Shown here in pieces: positions 2,971 to 22,501 of a stretch of 47,037 nucleotides of DNA; within the stretch, counting starts at the first letter, position 1, and every line of letters begins with the position of its first letter. The stretch is from a virus: the IMG/VR virus record IMGVR_UViG_3300012008_000008, positions 1 through 47,037 of that record; one strand, 5' to 3'. The translations under genes were made by a program, and so were the position numbers. The notes under the pieces are model-generated. The model was not told where the DNA came from, searched no databases, and saw only the letters and a program-made list of their open reading frames with translations.

Positions 2971-3185
2971 CACCCTACCTCGCTTTTGCGATCAAGCGGG
3001 CCTAGCTCTTGCTCGGCCTGCCAGATCGCGCGACTGATTGCATACTGGAGATCGCGAAGCTCGCGATGATCGAACGACCCGAGGCTATGGGCCGCAACGC
3101 CGCGACTGGGATGGCGCTTCACGTTGATCCAGCACGGCCACGGGCGGGAGACTTCGATCTCAAACTTTCCGACACGGATGTCCAT
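2970..3185 (-). CDS. Small hypothetical protein
   Basis: 71 residues from ATG 3185 (MDIRVGKFEIEVSRPWPCW), with GAGG just upstream; a GTG one codon earlier is possible. The start shares a base with the upstream stop (TGATG). N-terminal beta-like half, C-terminal helix (RELRDLQYAISRAIWQAEQEL). Not recognised. Confidence 0.6.
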   Translation of the reverse strand: MDIRVGKFEIEVSRPWPCWINVKRHPSRGVAAHSLGSFDHRELRDLQYAISRAIWQAEQELGPLDRKSEVG

Positions 3186-3328
3186 CACTGCCTCGTCTCG
3201 TATGAGAAGCTACCGACGAGCGCGCCCACAAAGAACGCTAGGCCCGCGTCACCGCCGACCGTGAGCCAGAGGACCACGGGTCCTGCCAAGGTGATGAAGA
3301 GCCGGATGGGCGATTTGATTGTGAACAT
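3185..3328 (-). CDS. 47-residue membrane protein, two segments
   Basis: ATG 3328 follows a strong AGAGGA ribosome site nine bases upstream. The sequence has two hydrophobic stretches, RLFITLAGPVVLWLTVG and GLAFFVGALVGSFSY, each able to span a membrane, with a basic start (MFTIKSPIR). Topology would resemble small two-span holins, but length and genome position give no independent support. Confidence 0.6.
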   Translation of the reverse strand: MFTIKSPIRLFITLAGPVVLWLTVGGDAGLAFFVGALVGSFSYETRQ

Positions 3329-3331
3329 AGC

Positions 3332-3481
3332 TCAATCCTCTTTGTCGTCGCCCCACATCTCGGCGGCTTCCACTATCTGACGCAACGCTGAGACCGGGAT
3401 GGCCTTGCGCTCGGCGGCGCGTGCGAAGCGCCTGCCCAAATCTTTTCTGATGTCGCTCACCTTGTCAGTCTTGCGCGTCAT
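3332..3481 (-). CDS. 49-residue basic/helical protein
   Basis: ATG 3481 shares a base with the upstream stop (TGATG). The product (MTRKTDKVSDIRKDLGRRFA...) is strongly basic in its first half and helical, with an acidic tail (WGDDKED). Possibly a small nucleic-acid binder; no family recognised. Confidence 0.55.
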   Translation of the reverse strand: MTRKTDKVSDIRKDLGRRFARAAERKAIPVSALRQIVEAAEMWGDDKED

Positions 3482-3687
3482 CACGTATCCTTCTCTCCCA
3501 ATAGGCCAGCGTCGCTTGCCAGCCGATAACCACGAACCAATTCTTGCAGGATGACTGGCGACACATGCTGCAACAGCCGTGCGATGTCACTCGCGAGCGG
3601 CAGGTTCAGTATCGGACCCACACGCTGATGCGTCACCCAACCTAAGTCGCGGGCAATAAGGTCAAGCTTTCCATTCGCGATAATCAT
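3481..3687 (-). CDS. Small hypothetical protein
   Basis: 68 residues from ATG 3687, overlapping the upstream stop as ATGA. Helical, with hydrophobic runs (SDIARLLQHVSPVILQELV) that look amphipathic rather than membrane-spanning. Not recognised. Confidence 0.6.
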   Translation of the reverse strand: MIIANGKLDLIARDLGWVTHQRVGPILNLPLASDIARLLQHVSPVILQELVRGYRLASDAGLLGEKDT

Positions 3688-3977
3688 GGCTTCGTTTCCG
3701 TGTTGATCGCACGTAACACCGACCGCACGGCCTCGTCAAGTACCTCCTGCGCCAATTTGTAGTCGTAGGCGTAGATGTCATTGCCATGCTTAACGATGCC
3801 GTCCGGGCCGCGCAGTCCGCCCTCAAAGAGGTCGCCGCCGATATGATAGTGTCCGCTCATCACGGGCTCGATCTCTTCCATCATGCTTGCGCATTGGTCC
3901 ATGACTGACGCGCGACACGCGATGTCCACTGTGATCGGGAATTGCTTTAGCTTGCGTGCTCGCTTTCGCTTGCTCAT
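3684..3977 (-). CDS. Small hypothetical protein, basic N-terminus
   Basis: 97 residues from ATG 3977 (MSKRKRARKLKQFPITVD), preceded by AGAAGGAAG; a start at 4043 would overlap the 20-codon gene in another frame and lacks this site. Very basic first 12 residues, then a mixed domain with HYHIGGDLFEGGLRGPDG and a C-terminal helix. Not recognised. Confidence 0.65.
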   Translation of the reverse strand: MSKRKRARKLKQFPITVDIACRASVMDQCASMMEEIEPVMSGHYHIGGDLFEGGLRGPDGIVKHGNDIYAYDYKLAQEVLDEAVRSVLRAINTETKP

Positions 3978-4036
3978 TTGTCTTCCTTCTCTGGCGTGGT
4001 CGCGCGCAGCTTGCTGACTTTGACCGGCTCCGTCAT
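3974..4036 (-). CDS. Possible 20-residue gene
   Basis: ATG 4036 follows AGGA nine bases upstream and the TGA overlaps the next start as ATGA. The peptide is MTEPVKVSKLRATTPEKEDK. It fills an otherwise unexplained 90-base gap in a tightly packed operon and could be a real micro-gene or a translational coupler. Evidence is only signal layout. Confidence 0.4.
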   Translation of the reverse strand: MTEPVKVSKLRATTPEKEDK

Positions 4037-4067
4037 TGATCAAAATCCTGTTGCTGTATCGAAGCCA

Positions 4068-4313
4068 TCAAAATCCCATGTCTGTGAGTTCGTCGTCCGT
4101 GTGGACCCGGCGAACTGTGATCGTCCCCGTGATCATGTCCATCTTGGTGCGGAGCTTACGGGCGCGGGTCCGGCCAAAGTGGTCCACTGCGTTGGACACC
4201 CTTCTTCCAAACTCAACATTTGTCAAGTCCGCAGGCTTCTCAAGCTTGACCGTGTCACCGTGATTAAGCTCCGCGATCTCGCGCGCTACGCCGCGATATT
4301 TCTTCCTCGGCAT
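4068..4313 (-). CDS. First gene of the leftward operon, hypothetical
   Basis: 81 residues from ATG 4313 with an excellent AAGGAG site seven bases upstream, about 41 bases below the predicted transcription start. Basic N-terminus (MPRKKYRGVAREIAELN), then a beta-rich part ending MITGTITVRRVHTDDELTDMGF. The first-gene position suggests an early, abundant protein. No family recognised. Confidence 0.7.
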   Translation of the reverse strand: MPRKKYRGVAREIAELNHGDTVKLEKPADLTNVEFGRRVSNAVDHFGRTRARKLRTKMDMITGTITVRRVHTDDELTDMGF

Positions 4314-4360
4314 TGCAGGCTCCTTGTGTGCATTTGTCTGAGTTAACAGGCTCTGAGGGG

Positions 4361-4389
4361 CCTATAATGCACTTTTTCGCCCTTGTCAA
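4361..4389 (-). promoter_or_regulatory. Leftward sigma70-type promoter
   Basis: On the minus strand, TTGACA (4389-4384), a 17-base spacer and TATAGG (4366-4361). Predicted start near 4354, followed by the AAGGAG site and ATG of the first leftward gene. Confidence 0.75.
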
Positions 4390-4581
4390 CCTCACTTTTC
4401 ATTGGACGTTTCCTTCTAACATCAATGACTTAGCAAGAGCGATTTTGACCTCGGTTTTCATGGTTTTGCCGCTTTTGAGGCTTCGAGCGTTGGGGCCGGG
4501 ATCGGGCTCTACAGCACGTAACCTATTGCGTATGCAGCGAGATCGCCTCTGCGCGTGGCCTAGTTGCCCTCTTCTATCGTA

Positions 4582-4734
4582 CTCAGCTTTCTCACCTGCG
4601 TACTCAAGACCCCCCTCCTATAAGCCTTTGATAACATACACAATACTCACCAACTCAGCTTTCTCACTACTTTTATCTTAGAGAGAGAGAGTTGTTATAT
4701 TATAGGAACAGTGATCTAGGGTGAGAAAGCTGAG
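4582..4734. repeat. Three copies of CTCAGCTTTCTCAC
   Basis: Exact 14-mers at 4582-4595 and 4654-4667 (direct) and 4721-4734 (inverted). The direct copies extend to 15 bases with a leading A. Between the second and third lies an AT-rich stretch with a GA run (4680-4691) and TTATATTATAG. The arrangement suits iterons of an origin or operator sites. Confidence 0.7.
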
Positions 4735-4798
4735 AACACTATTTTGTGGGCTTTGGTTAAGGTGGCGCTTCGCCCCCTATTCGAGGCAGGGAGGGGGC

Positions 4799-5084
4799 AA
4801 TTAACCTTAATCGTTAGGGTTAACAGGCGCGCTAGGCTATTAACCTCAATTGTGGCCTGTTAACCATGCTATATGACCTATAAACCCTTGATTAACCTTA
4901 CCTATTAGCGTTAATAGCACCCTCCCATGCCCCTATTAGGCTGTCAACACTACTATACTACCTATTGTCATTAACCTAAATTGTTTACGTTAACGCCACA
5001 TGCCCTATCCCTGTGATGCGAGGGTATCATTCTTGTTAACCATGATTGCGATTAACGTTAACAATTAACCTTAATCGCGATTAA
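4799..5084. repeat. TTAAC-site array in the control region
   Basis: About eleven TTAAC/GTTAAC sites; the first four begin near 4801, 4820, 4840 and 4860, about 20 bases apart. The 3' end has TTAACGTTAA (5052-5061) and the perfect palindrome TTAATCGCGATTAA (5071-5084). No gene is supported between 4314 and 5317. Candidate origin, partition or operator region. Confidence 0.6.
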
Positions 5085-5087
5085 GCC

Positions 5088-5116
5088 TTGACACAACCCA
5101 GAGGATGTGCTACCCT
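5088..5116 (+). promoter_or_regulatory. Rightward promoter
   Basis: TTGACA (5088-5093), 17-base spacer, TACCCT (5111-5116) with TGC directly before it, an extended -10. It lies directly after the TTAAC array and 230 bases before the first rightward gene. Confidence 0.5.
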
Positions 5117-5254
5117 GCAATGCACGCGAGATACGGGGTAGTAACCCTAACGCGCGACCGAGGGCGATTTTGCTATGGCCCCTAGCGTCCACACACTTCC
5201 TCCGATTTGGATCAAAATTCAGAAAAATAAAAATATGGAATTAGGAAAAATCCC

Positions 5255-5283
5255 TTGACACCTCGCCAGCGGGCAATTAGACA
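5255..5283 (+). promoter_or_regulatory. Rightward promoter with upstream A-tract
   Basis: TTGACA (5255-5260), 17-base spacer, TAGACA (5278-5283); the preceding 35 bases are A-rich (AGAAAAATAAAAATATGG) like an UP element. About 30 bases before the ATG of the first rightward gene. Confidence 0.55.
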
Positions 5284-5317
5284 AATGCCACACGTCCACC
5301 CCTCACGAGGCTCGACA

Positions 5318-5617
5318 ATGCGAAACCGAACAGCCGAACAGATTGAAGCCCGCACCGAGGCCGTCATGCGTCTGCGCGAAGCGACCATCCGATATGAAGC
5401 CAGCGGCAACGAAGAGCTTGCGGAAATTTTCCGCGAGCTTCACGCCGAGGCGCTGGAGGCGTTGCAGAACGCGCTCGATCTCTATCGCGGACAGGTGCCG
5501 AACACCATCGACCCCTACGTCATGATGGCGCACGCGGCGCGGAAGACCACGCACATCGTGGTCGGCGATCACACCCCCGAGGTCCGAACGGACCACGGGT
5601 CGGAGCCGCGCACGTGA
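5318..5617 (+). CDS. First gene of the rightward operon, helical protein
   Basis: 99 residues from ATG 5318 (MRNRTAEQIEARTEAVMRLR). The open frame reaches back to 5255, but that TTG is part of a promoter, so the ATG is preferred. The first 60 residues look like long charged helices, possibly a coiled coil; the rest is polar. Not recognised. The next start overlaps its stop as GTGA. Confidence 0.65.
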   Translation: MRNRTAEQIEARTEAVMRLREATIRYEASGNEELAEIFRELHAEALEALQNALDLYRGQVPNTIDPYVMMAHAARKTTHIVVGDHTPEVRTDHGSEPRT

Positions 5618-5712
5618 TTATCTTGATCGGGATCGAAGCGCTGTTGCTCATAGGGCTGTTGCTCTTCGCGTTCGGCGTCGCCAACATCATCATCGTTGGA
5701 GGCAAGTCATGA
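5614..5712 (+). CDS. 32-residue membrane peptide
   Basis: A GTG start overlaps the upstream stop as GTGA and the stop overlaps the next start as ATGA. The product, beginning MIILIGIEALLLIGLLLFAF and ending NIIIVGGKS, is a single hydrophobic helix. Coupling on both sides makes a real gene likely despite its size. Function unknown. Confidence 0.6.
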   Translation: MIILIGIEALLLIGLLLFAFGVANIIIVGGKS

Positions 5713-5894
5713 CCGCGCGCTACGTTGGCACGATCTACATCCAGTGCGACGACGGTGACGAGGTCGCGACAGTGACGTGCCGAGACCGAAAAGAGTTTCG
5801 CGAGATCGCGGAGGGCGCAGCGATCACACTCGACGAGCCCGTCCTGTTCGCCGACAACGTCGCGCTCATCGGCTACGTTGAGTGGCCACAATGA
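5709..5894 (+). CDS. Small hypothetical protein
   Basis: 61 residues from ATG 5709, coupled by ATGA on both sides. Alternating beta pattern (RYVGTIYIQCDDGDEVATVTC) followed by a short helix. No family recognised. Confidence 0.65.
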   Translation: MTARYVGTIYIQCDDGDEVATVTCRDRKEFREIAEGAAITLDEPVLFADNVALIGYVEWPQ

Positions 5895-6226
5895 ACCTCA
5901 ACATCGTGACCATGAGCAGCGCGCTCGCGGGCGCAGTCATAGCCGGGCTCACCGGGCATCTCTGGATGGCCCTCTCTCCATCTCAACGCTACGCGATCTT
6001 GATGATGCACGCGTCCAACGGCATCAGCTACGACGACCAGCGTGACCGCACGATGATGGCTTTGCAACGCCGAGGTCTCGTGCGGTTTCAGCGTCGAGCG
6101 AAGTACGGGCGCAATTGCTGGCATCTAACCGAGGCCGGGACCGGCGAGGCGGCGAGGCGTCTCGCGCAGAAGGCGCGGCTGGCGAAGAGCGACGAGCGGG
6201 CGCTGCTCAGGGAGATCATGCGATGA
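5891..6226 (+). CDS. Winged-helix-like DNA-binding protein
   Basis: 111 residues from ATG 5891 (ATGA overlap; a GTG at 5882 is less likely). After a short hydrophobic start, residues about 28-80 read SPSQRYAILMMHASNGISY ... TMMALQRRGLVRFQRR ... WHLTEAG, the pattern of a winged helix in which a recognition helix is followed by an L-T-E-A-G strand (MarR/PadR-like logic). It could regulate phage genes. The C-terminus ALLREIMR resembles the end of the protein at 95-349. Confidence 0.6.
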   Translation: MNLNIVTMSSALAGAVIAGLTGHLWMALSPSQRYAILMMHASNGISYDDQRDRTMMALQRRGLVRFQRRAKYGRNCWHLTEAGTGEAARRLAQKARLAKSDERALLREIMR

Positions 6227-6531
6227 CCCATCGCGAGAAGAGCCTGACCCCGTGGATACTGCCGGACGGCTTCGTGCCAACGTTCCTATCGCCCAGCGTC
6301 TACGACGCGGCGGCGGCGCAGGGCTGCGACATGAAATGGTTCGTGCGACAGGAGCCCATCCCGCGCAGCGAGCGCTTCCCCGGCATCCCCGGGAGCCTCA
6401 CGCCAGACCCGGCGCACACCACGAGGCGCGGCAACCCTAAGAAGCACCGCGATGATCGCGGATGCAGCGGCATGTGCATGCTCGGCCTCGGCGGCAAGTG
6501 CGTGGCGTGCAGCGAGGATGACATGACATGA
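6223..6531 (+). CDS. Small Cys-rich C-terminus hypothetical protein
   Basis: 102 residues from ATG 6223 (ATGA overlap). Polar and Pro-rich, with a C-terminal cluster CSGMCMLGLGGKCVACSED holding four Cys in C-x3-C and C-x2-C spacing, a likely zinc site. Not recognised. Confidence 0.65.
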   Translation: MTHREKSLTPWILPDGFVPTFLSPSVYDAAAAQGCDMKWFVRQEPIPRSERFPGIPGSLTPDPAHTTRRGNPKKHRDDRGCSGMCMLGLGGKCVACSEDDMT

Positions 6532-14861: not shown

Positions 14862-15047
14862 ATGGATGTGTCAACATGGGATGAAGCGGTGTCCGACGAT
14901 GATGCGGCTGAGTGCTTGGGCAATGGTCATCCCAAGAGCAAGCGTCCGCCTGCTCATGACAGCTTTCCGGGCAGTGGCGGCGGGCCGGGCGCGGGCTCGG
15001 CTCCGGGAGCGAACGGACCGCCTACGACGGGACCGGAATTAGCCTAG
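14862..15047 (+). CDS. Small Gly/Pro-rich protein
   Basis: 61 residues from ATG 14862. Acidic N-terminus, then KSKRPPAHDSFPGSGGGPGA, where PPAHDSF resembles the APVHDSM motif of the tagged genes. Otherwise disordered. Its 3' end overlaps the end of the leftward GIY-YIG gene. Confidence 0.55.
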   Translation: MDVSTWDEAVSDDDAAECLGNGHPKSKRPPAHDSFPGSGGGPGAGSAPGANGPPTTGPELA

Positions 15048-15524
15048 CGTTTTGTCAGTTGTGGACCGCCGTTTACGTGCCGCCACCATTTTAGCGCGGG
15101 CTTCGGCAGAATGTTTCTTTGGCCCTGTGGGCGGATGGCCCATCCGTGCCGCTGAGATATTCGCACGATGACTGTCCGACAATCTCATTCCTTTGGCCCA
15201 TGAACTATTGTTTTTCATTTTTGCTCGGGTTTGTGGCAGTGGATCACGACACCCGAAGCCTCCAGCGTTTTTATTGAAACCATCTGGCAATCGGGTTTGA
15301 AAAACTCGGATGGCATTGATCTCAAGTTCATAGATATATTCTCGGGAGCCACATGCGAGCGTTTCGAAACGCATCGTGGTCCGCCCGAATGTCCGGGCCG
15401 CGTCATAAATTGCTGATTGATGATCACGGCAATGCTTACTCCATCGGGTACGCGGGCATTCTGAGACGCCAATGTACGCCCGACCATCGGGAGCCGTGAT
15501 CCGATAAAGATAGTATGGTTTCAT
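15039..15524 (-). CDS. GIY-YIG homing endonuclease 1 (leftward)
   Basis: 161 residues from ATG 15524. The GIY-YIG nuclease core is clear: YYLYRI and AYIGVS near the start, a catalytic Arg and His in PRTRWSKHC, and Glu in YIYELEINAI. After that come NUMOD3-type DNA-binding repeats (HRANISAARMGH, SAEARAKMVAARK). It is paralogous to the gene at 20920. It is the only leftward gene in this region. Its last codons (TTDKTLG) are read from the reverse of the TTGTCAGTTGT element, and a second copy of that element lies just beyond its start, as expected if it inserted there. Confidence 0.85.
   Translation of the reverse strand: MKPYYLYRITAPDGRAYIGVSECPRTRWSKHCRDHQSAIYDAARTFGRTTMRFETLACGSREYIYELEINAIRVFQTRLPDGFNKNAGGFGCRDPLPQTRAKMKNNSSWAKGMRLSDSHRANISAARMGHPPTGPKKHSAEARAKMVAARKRRSTTDKTLG
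15052..15064 (+). promoter_or_regulatory. TTGTCAGTTGT element, copy 2
   Basis: TTGTCAGTTGT followed by GG rather than TC; no TAnnnT at the usual distance. It starts five bases after the stop of the gene at 14862 and lies inside the 3' end of the GIY-YIG gene. Confidence 0.45.
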
Positions 15525-19207: not shown

Positions 19208-20920
19208 ATGGCGCTTCCTGACAAACACCCGGAATATATCGAACGGCTCGCCGAGTGGATACAGATGACCGACACCTATACGGGCGAGCGCGCCGTCAAG
19301 GGCAAGCGGCTCGACTATCTTCCTGCGACCGAGGGCATGGTGCAGGATGGGATGACGACGCCGCAGTCTCCGGGCTGGAAAGATTATCAGGCGTATCTGA
19401 TGCGCGCCGTCTTCCACGATGTTGTCAAGGAAGCCGTCAAGGCCATGGTCGGCATCATGCATAACAAGCCTGCTCTCATTAAGCTCCCCAAGCGCCTCGA
19501 AGGCATGATGGAGAAGGCGACCATTCAGGGCGAGGGGCTCCAGATGCTTCTCCGCCGGATCAACGTCGCGCAACTCGTCTATGGTCGTTGCGGTCTTCTG
19601 TGCGACGCGCCGCAGGGCGTAGACGCGAACAAGGCTGTCCCGTATCTTTCGTTCTACAATCCCGAGCGGATCATCAACTGGGATGCGGGCAAGCTCAACG
19701 AAGGCATGAACGACCTCGATCTCATCGTGCTCGACGAGAGCGGCTTTCGCCGTGAAGGCTTCACGTGGAAGACTGAAAAGAAGTACCGCATCTTGACACG
19801 CGGAGGTCCCGCCGAACTCGATAGCGGATGGGAGCGTCCGCCGGAGGGCGCGCCATTCAGCGTCGCGGTGAAGGTCAACGACACGAGCATGCCGCTGATT
19901 GATGATTTCAGATTTCCGAGCATCGCGGGCAGGACGCTCGACCAAATCCCGTTTATCTTCATCGGGGCGAACGATCTCGTGCCCGAGACCGAGATATCTC
20001 CACTTCTGGGCCTGTCGAACCTCGCGCTCGCGATCTATCGCGCCGAAGCGGACTATCGGCAGACGCTCTATTTGCAGGGGCAGAACACGCTCGTCATCAT
20101 CGGCGGCAACGTGGATGAGGCCACGCCGTCGCAACTGCGCGTCGGTAACAAGGGCCTCATCGACTTGAAGCTGGGTGGCGACGCGAAGTATATCGGCGTT
20201 TCCGCTGCGGGTCTCGGAGAAATGCGGCAGTCGCTCACCTCGGATAAGGAAGCCGCCGCCTTATCGGGCATCGCCTTCTTGGATGTTGGCAACGCTCGTG
20301 GCGAGGTCGGAGAGACGCTCCGCATTCGTGTGGCTGCTCGCACCACGACAATCTCTTCCGTTGCCCAGTGCGCAGGCGCGGGGCTTGAGCAGGCTCTCAA
20401 GTATTGCGCGCAATGGGTTGGAGAAGACCCGGAAGAAGTCAAGGTCGAGCCGACTACCGACTTCGCCGATCAGACTGTTGCTGGCGCTGCGTTGCTCGCC
20501 TTCATGCAGGCGAAGCAATTGGGCCTCCCCCTGTCACTGCGGTCAATGCACCGCATGATGAAAATGAACGACATGACGGAGATGGATTTTGACCAAGAGA
20601 ACGCACAGATCGAAGAGGAAGCAGCGTCCATGCTTGGGACGATGGTCGGTCCATTCCAGACATCTGTCACCGATGATACTTTCTTGGATGAGGACATCAG
20701 CCCTGTCGCTGGTCCGGCTGCGGGCACGCCCGGCGGCACTGCATCTCCCGCCAGTCCTGCACCTCCGGCTGGGCCTGCATCTACTGCGCCGCCCAATAAG
20801 AACGTTCCGGTCACACCGAGTGCTCAGAACAAAGGCTACACGCGTGGCTCACCTGTCCCCCTGAAGCGCAAGGTCGGCAAGAAGGGAGCTAGTGCTGGCA
20901 AAACCAAGGGCGGAGTGTAA
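19208..20920 (+). CDS. Portal protein (DUF4055-like)
   Basis: 570 residues from ATG 19208. The N-terminal RAVKGKRLDYLPATEG, the KDYQAYLMRAVFHDVVKEAV helix and the conserved order of helices match the DUF4055 portal-like family. The C-terminal 80 residues are Pro/Ala/Gly-rich and end KGASAGKTKGGV. As portal it would form the dodecameric vertex ring used for packaging and ejection. The last seven codons (20897-20917, GKTKGGV) are repeated with synonymous changes at the end of the endonuclease that follows, so the tail was probably replaced when that gene inserted. Confidence 0.85.
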   Translation: MALPDKHPEYIERLAEWIQMTDTYTGERAVKGKRLDYLPATEGMVQDGMTTPQSPGWKDYQAYLMRAVFHDVVKEAVKAMVGIMHNKPALIKLPKRLEGMMEKATIQGEGLQMLLRRINVAQLVYGRCGLLCDAPQGVDANKAVPYLSFYNPERIINWDAGKLNEGMNDLDLIVLDESGFRREGFTWKTEKKYRILTRGGPAELDSGWERPPEGAPFSVAVKVNDTSMPLIDDFRFPSIAGRTLDQIPFIFIGANDLVPETEISPLLGLSNLALAIYRAEADYRQTLYLQGQNTLVIIGGNVDEATPSQLRVGNKGLIDLKLGGDAKYIGVSAAGLGEMRQSLTSDKEAAALSGIAFLDVGNARGEVGETLRIRVAARTTTISSVAQCAGAGLEQALKYCAQWVGEDPEEVKVEPTTDFADQTVAGAALLAFMQAKQLGLPLSLRSMHRMMKMNDMTEMDFDQENAQIEEEAASMLGTMVGPFQTSVTDDTFLDEDISPVAGPAAGTPGGTASPASPAPPAGPASTAPPNKNVPVTPSAQNKGYTRGSPVPLKRKVGKKGASAGKTKGGV

Positions 20921-21426
20921 TGGATTGCTACCTCTATAGCGTGAAGCTCCCGGATGGGCGTGGGTATCTCGGCGTCACGAAGTGGCCGGAAACCCGCTTC
21001 ACGGAGCACTGCCGAAACCGCTATGAGGTCGGTAAGGCCATCCGCGCCGCCGGACGGGAAAACGTCGAGTTCAAAATTCTCGTGCGTGGAGGGCAGGACT
21101 ATATCTTCGCGCTCGAAGAGAAGGCGGTTGAGGCATTCGGCACACGCTGGCCAAATGGCCTGAATGTGGCGAGCGGTGGATTTGGTGGACGCGATCACCT
21201 ACCGGAGATACGGGAAAAGTGCCGACGTGCAGTTGTTGGCATGCGGAGATCGGAAGAGACACGAGCGAAGATATCTGCGGCTAGACGAGGACGCTCGCCA
21301 TCACAAGAGACACGAGACAAGTTAGCGGCAGCCGGACGAGGAAAGCAGATGCCGGACGCGGTCAAAGCTAAAATCTCGGCTGCCCTGATTGGCAAGCCGA
21401 GGGGAAAGACCAAAGGCGGCGTATGA
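20920..21426 (+). CDS. GIY-YIG homing endonuclease 2
   Basis: 168 residues; its ATG shares a base with the portal stop (TAATG). Nuclease core: YLYSV (from Y4), GYLGV (15-19), R26 and H30 in ETRFTEH, and Glu in FALEEKAVEAF. Three NUMOD3-like repeats follow (EETRAKISAARRG, QETRDKLAAAGRGK, DAVKAKISAALIGK). The protein ends GKTKGGV, the same as portal but with different codons, and its TGA overlaps the next start as ATGA. That layout suggests it entered the original portal 3' end, taking over the old tail and supplying a recoded one. Confidence 0.88.
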   Translation: MDCYLYSVKLPDGRGYLGVTKWPETRFTEHCRNRYEVGKAIRAAGRENVEFKILVRGGQDYIFALEEKAVEAFGTRWPNGLNVASGGFGGRDHLPEIREKCRRAVVGMRRSEETRAKISAARRGRSPSQETRDKLAAAGRGKQMPDAVKAKISAALIGKPRGKTKGGV

Positions 21427-21674
21427 GCAACATCGTGGAGCTTAAATCACGTCCGGTCGTCATCGTCGAAAGCGTGGTAGCGCGGCTCGAAGAGATGCTG
21501 GCCGACGCGCGGGCGGGCAAGATCACGGCGGTTGCTATTGCTGCGGTCGCGAGTGACGGGGCATCAACTCAGTCGTGGTCGGAGGGTGATGATTTCGGGG
21601 AAATGTTGGGCGCAGTCGCTCGGCTCCAACATCGGCTTAACGTGGCGCAGGATAGAGTACAGGACGACGCATGA
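21423..21674 (+). CDS. Small conserved phage protein
   Basis: 83 residues from ATG 21423 (ATGA). Pattern LEEMLADARAGKITAVAIAA then GDDFGEMLGAVARLQHRL is one I recall from many proteobacterial phages and prophages, of unknown function. It is coupled on both sides. Confidence 0.65.
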   Translation: MSNIVELKSRPVVIVESVVARLEEMLADARAGKITAVAIAAVASDGASTQSWSEGDDFGEMLGAVARLQHRLNVAQDRVQDDA

Positions 21675-21880
21675 GAAATCTGCTCAAGAAAATCCGGCAG
21701 GCGCGCTGCCTGCATTGGTTTAATCCTCCGGTAACGATGGAGTTTACGGAGTGGAGCGGAGCTATCGTTTGTTGCCAGCAGAAACATTGGACCTACACTC
21801 AGGAGACCCGAACTTGCAGTAAGTGCGGCCTCACCGACAGCCGCCGGGTCGGCGAGCCAGTTTATATGGGATGGGACTGA
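21671..21880 (+). CDS. Small zinc-knuckle protein
   Basis: 69 residues from ATG 21671 (ATGA). HWTYTQETRTCSKCGLTDSR forms a C-x2-C knuckle, with further Cys earlier (ARCLHW, VCCQQ). Such proteins are frequent in phages; role unknown. The stop shares a base with the next start. Confidence 0.6.
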   Translation: MRNLLKKIRQARCLHWFNPPVTMEFTEWSGAIVCCQQKHWTYTQETRTCSKCGLTDSRRVGEPVYMGWD

Positions 21881-22131
21881 TGAGCGATCCGGCTGGCCCC
21901 CACATCGTCAAGACCTTCCACGAGGCGCTCGACATTCTCGATAAGTGTGAACCGGCGATCCGGGACCTGATTGAGACGAACCTGATGGACGTGGCTGGCG
22001 TCAATCGAACGAAGGTCAGCGACGCCATGCTGACCCGCGACGAATTGACGAAGCGCATTGTTGCATTGAGGCATCATCACCTTAAAGCAGCGTTTCGTCA
22101 TCTTCGCGACAACCTACCGAGTGATATTTGA
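21880..22131 (+). CDS. Small helical protein
   Basis: 83 residues from ATG 21880 (TGATG junction). All-helical in appearance (KTFHEALDILDKCEPAIRDL; ELTKRIVALRHHHLKAAFRH). Not recognised. Confidence 0.6.
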   Translation: MSDPAGPHIVKTFHEALDILDKCEPAIRDLIETNLMDVAGVNRTKVSDAMLTRDELTKRIVALRHHHLKAAFRHLRDNLPSDI

Positions 22132-22132
22132 A

Positions 22133-22501
22133 ATGCGTAAAATTAGCAGAGCAGTGGCGATCACGCGGGGACTTCCTCGGTACTTCACCGGGGTAGTCTG
22201 TAGGTGTGGTCACGTCTGCGAAAGACAGACGTGTGACCGAACGTGTCTTGCGTGCAAACGGGCCGGGACCAAAGAATATAGCATGGCCCCGAAAGGTCGG
22301 GAGGCCGCTCGGCGATACTTCACGAGCCCTCTAGGACACGAAACGCATCGTCGGTACGATGAGAGCCCATTAGGCCGTGAGGCCCATCGGCGATACGATG
22401 GAAGTCCATTAGGCCGGGAAGCGCATCGACGATACGATGGAAGTCCATTAGGCCGGGAAGCGCACCGTCGCTCCGATCAAAAGAGAGCATCTACCCAGTG
22501 A
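22133..22501 (+). CDS. Zinc-finger protein with 13-residue tandem repeats
   Basis: 122 residues from ATG 22133. Residues about 17-46 read PRYFTGVVCRCGHVCERQTC then LACKR, the YFTG-x-C-x-GH-x-x-R...C-x2-C finger that accompanies phage HNH nucleases. The rest is four full copies of R-Y-x-x-S-P-L-G-x-E-x-H-R plus a partial copy on each side. There is no nuclease motif. Copies 3 and 4 are almost identical at DNA level, showing recent expansion. It may be a nuclease-derived DNA binder whose linker repeats have multiplied. Confidence 0.6.
   Translation: MRKISRAVAITRGLPRYFTGVVCRCGHVCERQTCDRTCLACKRAGTKEYSMAPKGREAARRYFTSPLGHETHRRYDESPLGREAHRRYDGSPLGREAHRRYDGSPLGREAHRRSDQKRASTQ
22313..22468 (+). repeat. 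39-bp in-frame tandem repeat, four copies
   Basis: Units 22313-22351, 22352-22390, 22391-22429 and 22430-22468. Units 3 and 4 differ at about two positions; units 1 and 2 are more diverged. A degenerate half unit precedes (PKGREAAR). No spacers, so not a CRISPR. Confidence 0.8.

Follow-up and report, generated by a model that had tools for sequence, protein, structure and literature searches.

As a rule, homing endonuclease genes are inserted in the intervals between genes or within introns or inteins, which are removed by splicing. MobE and MobA are inserted into large-subunit genes themselves, splitting them. In these two cases, MobE in Aeh1 nrdA and MobA in T4 gene 60, the endonuclease gene has been described as lying within coding sequence (PMC2988022). 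The free-standing GIY-YIG (Seg) endonucleases of T-even phages, which move by intronless homing, are described as inserted between genes and as cutting hundreds to thousands of bases away (PMC2988022). Another arrangement is found among the mobile ORFs of fungal mitochondria, which form gene hybrids with atp6 in Allomyces and with atp6, atp9, cox2 and nad3 in Glomus: the host gene is fused to an inserted, synonymously diverged C-terminus, the endonuclease ORF comes next and the native C-terminus, displaced, lies beyond it, and the Glomus atp9 element is of the GIY-YIG type (PMC3630166).

The locus described here is not mitochondrial: it lies in the window, the whole stretch of 47,037 nucleotides that was analysed, which is a virus record (IMGVR_UViG_3300012008_000008) with portal and terminase genes. 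It comes closest to the C-terminus-replacing mobile ORFs of fungal mitochondria, which it resembles in that a host gene with an inserted C-terminal segment is followed by an endonuclease and a native segment (in the window and in locus L137, with a relic in L104), the native segment matching insert-free relatives and the inserted one differing from them synonymously. Unlike the fungal elements, it resides in a phage, where the host gene is an essential capsid gene and the tail measures just 7 to 11 codons, and the native tail is kept in frame as the C-terminus of the homing endonuclease gene (HEG), together with the stop codon and the overlap with the next gene. The window element works like the fungal mitochondrial C-terminus-replacing ORFs but is not a member of that group. 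With the T-even Seg endonucleases it shares a stand-alone GIY-YIG/NUMOD gene between essential phage genes, a scattered presence and an expected spread via double-strand-break repair and co-conversion; unlike them, it appears to be inserted inside a coding end, which is replaced. Insertion into the coding sequence of an essential phage gene is a feature held in common with MobE and MobA, although in the window the host gene remains whole, as the replacement end comes with the insert. The GIY-YIG endonuclease of yuavirus LKO4 (L041) is 38% identical to that of the window and lies in the interval between portal and head morphogenesis genes, as in the window, but a 39-aa ORF separates it from portal and the portal tail is not duplicated. 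A layout of this kind is already known from fungal mitochondria; a phage example was not found in the literature searched, where subscription journals were sparsely covered, and the phage version is apparently undescribed there.

The portal assignment rests on family matches (1.2e-100 for phrog_145 and 1.4e-17 for the Pfam domain) and on relatives that are 83-88% identical. The next gene is, judging from profile matches, conserved residues and a structure model, a GIY-YIG/NUMOD3 homing endonuclease gene. It matches phrog_314 at 9.4e-22 and NUMOD3 at 7.8e-8, the latter above the gathering score in the HEGs of the window, L102 and L137, and the GIY-YIG catalytic residues Y6, Y16, R26, H30, E66 and N82 are invariant among the HEG relatives; the Pfam GIY-YIG profile gave a sub-threshold match only, and only for the L102 HEG. 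The best match of the predicted fold is the catalytic domain of I-TevI (1ln0; TM-score of 0.72, target), with the confidence of the model confined to residues 1-80 and the captured tail unstructured, and a PDB sequence search with the HEG profile gave no match. The HEG sits between intact genes, outside any intron or intein, and overlaps its neighbors on the two sides through TAATG and ATGA (Table 1). Searches of bacterial and archaeal genomes gave no relatives of either gene, portal or HEG; therefore, the phages carrying these loci are probably not prophages. The window also encodes another GIY-YIG endonuclease of this family (15039-15524, minus strand), which is 42% identical; in the phage represented by L011, L037 and L132, a homologue of it is similarly placed upstream of the packaging genes (L132, 3001-3660).

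Table 1. Features at the portal end of the window; assignments of origin rest on sequence comparison
Feature	Coordinates	Strand	Description
Portal protein gene	19208..20920	+	570 aa; phrog_145 portal, Pfam DUF4055
Replacement (recoded) portal tail, GASAGKTKGGV	20885..20917	+	GGA GCT AGT GCT GGC AAA ACC AAG GGC GGA GTG
TAATG	20918..20922	+	portal stop and HEG start overlap by one base (sequence)
Predicted free-standing GIY-YIG/NUMOD3 homing endonuclease gene (HEG)	20920..21426	+	168 aa; phrog_314, NUMOD3, catalytic residues, fold
Native portal tail, GKTKGGV-TGA	21403..21426	+	now in frame as HEG C-terminus
Gene A, inserted small gene (phrog_796)	21423..21674	+	ATGA overlap with HEG; not the ancestral portal neighbor
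Gene B, inserted small gene	21671..21880	+	no family; no match among fetched loci apart from the window itself
MSDPAGPH... gene	21880..22131	+	native portal neighbor in HEG-less relatives

The original prediction, made from the sequence of the window, held that portal and the HEG both end in GKTKGGV with third-base differences in five of the seven codons, and that the TGA of the HEG overlaps the next ATG as ATGA. Both points are confirmed: the 3' end of portal reads GGC AAA ACC AAG GGC GGA GTG TAA (20897-20920), that of the HEG reads GGA AAG ACC AAA GGC GGC GTA TGA (21403-21426), and the next ATG starts at 21423. A mechanical scan of 4,035 adjacent ORF pairs from the window and the fetched loci identified C-termini with at least five shared residues in the portal/HEG pairs of the window (7 aa), of its copy L001 (the same 7 aa) and of L137 (5 aa), and otherwise only in one pair from L003 (16 aa). 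Because such sharing is so rare among these pairs, the common C-terminus of portal and the HEG goes beyond chance. The L003 pair was rejected as a case of the same layout and represents an ordinary tandem gene duplication (589-1602), in which paralogues of the MAKD..LGHGSN type, small genes that are abundant in these phages, have their last 16 residues in common.

Comparison with HEG-less phages indicates which of the two copies is native. The 16 close portal relatives all lack a HEG at the portal end, one of them having a distant paralogue elsewhere. In L008 and L057, which are the same contig, portal ends GGG AAG ACC AAA GGC GGC GTA TGA G and directly adjoins the gene that follows, and in L007 and L012 it ends GGG AAG ACC AAA GGC GGC GCA TGA G. 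The HEG-borne copy in the window (21403-21427) matches the L057 portal end (5693-5717) in 24 of 25 bp (96%), after which homology to L057 resumes only at position 21880; homology between the HEGs of the window and L102 stops at residue 161 (GKPR), beyond which the window HEG has only the seven residues of the portal tail. The portal tail of the window itself differs synonymously from that of L008/L057 in 9 of 11 codons, with no amino-acid changes; in the portal body, 36% of the codons for shared residues differ from L008. The recoded stretch has a sharp left boundary and is longer than noted earlier, 11 codons (GASAGKTKGGV) instead of 7. Since the HEG-less portals match the codons borne by the HEG and not those of the window portal, the downstream copy is the displaced native tail, now the HEG C-terminus, and the last 11 portal codons are the replacement. 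The claim that the HEG kept the old tail while portal received a recoded one is supported by this match and is also borne out by the independent occurrence of the same layout in L137, the relic in L104 and the partial version in L102, all described below. Alternatively, the resident tail could have been duplicated in tandem when the HEG was inserted, and the upstream copy could then have drifted synonymously. Both copies in the window end in V, as in L008, unlike the other HEG-less relatives with a KTKGG tail, which agrees with such a duplication; nevertheless, we regard it as very improbable, given the density of exclusively synonymous change against the background of the portal body and the presence of GGA GCT AGT also in L102, with a portal that is only 67% identical.

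The expectations for the junction in HEG-less relatives held in part. The predicted portal end GKTKGGV is found in L008, whereas most relatives end in GKTKGGA and, outside the window's clade, the tails are shorter (GK or K). The predicted ATGA junction is present, but it connects portal to the homologue of the gene at 21880 (L006-L008, L012 and L014), and the gene at 21423, once proposed as the ancestral neighbor of portal, was rejected in that role. The latter gene (gene A, MSNIVELK...) is absent from the records of the 16 close relatives, and the interval 21423-21880 holds two further genes that were added between the displaced tail and the MSDPAGPH gene. Gene A looks mobile in its own right: an unrelated phage has a 49% identical homologue behind another gene, which it overlaps through ATGA (L019, 711-947). 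Further downstream, a small gene (22121-22501) that overlaps the end of the MSDPAGPH gene contains an in-frame 39-bp tandem repeat in 3.5 copies (22340-22477; SPLGREAHRRYDG).

Most likely, this arrangement arose when the HEG homed into the end of portal; the donor would have supplied the recoded tail, and the HEG would have captured the native one as its C-terminus. Under this scenario, the HEG would occupy the last portal codons in a family of soil phages. In a HEG-less phage, the enzyme would cut the 3' end of portal around the K-G-A-S-A-G-K codons, and repair from a co-infecting HEG-bearing phage would copy in the HEG along with a portal tail that specifies the same amino acids through different codons, so that the recognition sequence is disrupted without damage to portal. 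The native tail, now displaced, would stay downstream, in frame, and the HEG would read through it as its own C-terminus, taking over the stop codon of this tail as well as the overlap of the tail with the gene behind it. The duplication, the identity of the native copy, the recurrence at one site with diverged HEGs, the scattered presence, the linkage of recoding with the HEG and the relic are seen in the sequences, whereas enzyme activity, the exact position of the cut and immunity via recoding are inferred; as the recoded codons adjoin the insert, the cleavage site may be close by.

A wider scan with the portal alignment yielded 63 loci, and L137 was found by an endonuclease-based scan; the evidence at the portal site comes from metagenomic contigs and comprises two intact homologues of the HEG and one relic. 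In L102, with a portal that is 67% identical to that of the window, a HEG that is 59% identical to the window HEG overlaps the portal end. Compared to the HEG-less L087 (92% portal DNA identity), the last nine portal codons of L102 all differ, all of them synonymously, whereas in the portal body 18.7% of same-residue codons differ. No native tail is kept in L102, and the C-terminal extension of its HEG had no match elsewhere in a search for its origin. L137, with 65% portal identity to the window and a HEG that is 60% identical to the window HEG and 79% identical to that of L102, shows the full layout: portal ends in GASAGK with recoded codons (AAA GGA GCC AGC GCG GGA AAA TGA), and the HEG ends in AEAASAGK with native-type codons (GCG TCA GCC GGA AAG TAA), followed by GTC ATG of the next gene, so that the HEG C-terminus corresponds to the native portal tail (ASAGK-TAA). 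In L104, a recoded portal tail is followed by about 80 bp and then by the ORF end SAALAGRNVRAEASAGK-TAA, in which the C-terminus of the L137 HEG (SAALIGRNVRAEAASAGK) runs into GCGTCGGCCGGGAAGTAAG, the exact native tail of L104's clade; this layout is the deletion scar of a lost HEG. Convergence of Lys/Gly-rich C-termini by chance or low complexity, which might be entertained because NUMOD3 tails are rich in Gly and Lys, has a practically negligible probability in view of the 25-bp DNA match to native portal ends with a single mismatch and the recurrence in L137 and L104, where the tail is another one (ASAGK); together with the ORF-pair scan, these observations led us to reject a chance match.

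The same layout was not found around the other HEG homologues, namely those of LKO4 and of Xanthomonas, Rhizobium, crAss-like and Pseudanabaena phages (L041, L044-L046, L048, L049, L052). Another phage, L133, encodes a 290-aa GIY-YIG endonuclease between the genes for the small and large terminase subunits (2980-6232), with no duplicated terminase tail beside it; its large subunit contains an intein-like insert (Pfam Intein_splicing 5.6e-7, under the curated cut-off).

The portal tails end at each host's own length (GKTKGGV, GK, GK and GKA), and GGA GCT AGT is common to the tails of the window and L102. In L102, the GC content at third codon positions (GC3) is 0.00 in the portal tail, 0.54 in the HEG and 0.75 in portal. 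These features bear on the possibility of passive hitchhiking, under which the recoded tail would be the 3' end of a diverged donor portal that was co-converted with the HEG, the codon differences reflecting donor divergence and not escape from cleavage, with the true cut site perhaps elsewhere. The tail and the HEG of L102 are both AT-rich at third positions, as if they came from another donor; the cut sites of free-standing T4 endonucleases are usually at a distance of hundreds of bases or more (PMC2988022); and the inserted C-termini in Glomus cluster apart from the native ones (PMC3630166). Conversely, the recoding is densest in the last 9-11 codons, involves no amino-acid changes, affects the same codons in four phages and fits the tail length of each host. 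We view hitchhiking as possible but rather unlikely; it and the homing account favored here are not mutually exclusive.

To describe the linkage between recoding and the HEG, 'GCT AGT' proved too narrow as a strict marker because L137 has GCC AGC, and it was replaced by Gly GGA or GGG combined with Ser AGY. Among 34 non-redundant portals, tails of this type are present in all 4 that have or had a HEG and in none of the 30 HEG-less ones (Fisher p=2.2e-5, for a codon rule chosen after the tails were seen). L064, which clustering left out of the test as a near-duplicate of L061-L063, would raise this value to about 1e-4 if counted. Its tail is recoded (GGG GCC AGT GCG) without a HEG, on a portal body that is 99.7% identical to that of L062; thus, tail recoding is not strictly tied to the HEG, and the L064 tail could be either a resistant HEG-free allele or the product of ordinary gene conversion. 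The difference between L062 and L064 consists of a short recoded tract that extends from the portal tail into the beginning of the following gene (about 5690-5730). In another pair, L070 and L071, the portal bodies are 100% identical, but divergence sets in at the tail and continues through the genes behind it, with no HEG there. On the portal tree, the HEG is scattered, with 4 changes for the four HEG-positive rows, at least three of them forced by the starred branches; L087 and L102 differ in its presence despite the portal similarity mentioned above, and the HEGs of L102 and L137 are more similar (79% identity) than their portals (68%). The recurrence, linkage, scatter and excess of HEG identity over portal identity fit a mobile gene at one site. 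The recoded tail of the window contains the clade-specific TKGGV and was therefore not copied from L102- or L137-like phages; the immediate donor would have been a phage of the window's clade, or else the recoding may have arisen within that clade.

Ordinary mosaic accretion could, in principle, produce some of these patterns if the 3' end of portal were a hot spot for small genes, with the HEG as one passenger and the tail differences resulting from random recombination at module borders. Genes are indeed inserted at the portal 3' end more generally, with other small genes at the same junction in L003, L004, L005, L013 and L015, and within the near-identical pairs L062/L064 and L071/L070 the tails differ in the absence of a HEG there. 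However, the portal tail is carried twice only with HEG insertions, none of the other inserted genes ends in it, and three separate parts of the portal tree have a HEG of the same family at an identical codon position; accretion of this kind is improbable.

Beyond the window, the homing account leads us to favor, with somewhat more confidence than doubt, the view that C-terminus-swapping homing elements form a class that recurs in phages. Such elements would target the end of an essential structural gene, restore that gene with a synonymously recoded tail through which the carrier gains immunity, and recruit the displaced native tail as the HEG C-terminus, without an intron or intein; their losses would leave scars, as in L104, and recoded HEG-free, presumably resistant, alleles, as in L064. 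The model predicts a cut site within about 10 codons, and a tail carried twice in different codons offers a sequence signature for finding such elements elsewhere. An element of this type would sit where the coding sequence of an essential capsid gene ends, paying for its place with a spare, recoded gene end; if true, this would explain how an intron-free selfish gene targets a conserved coding sequence and protects its carrier.
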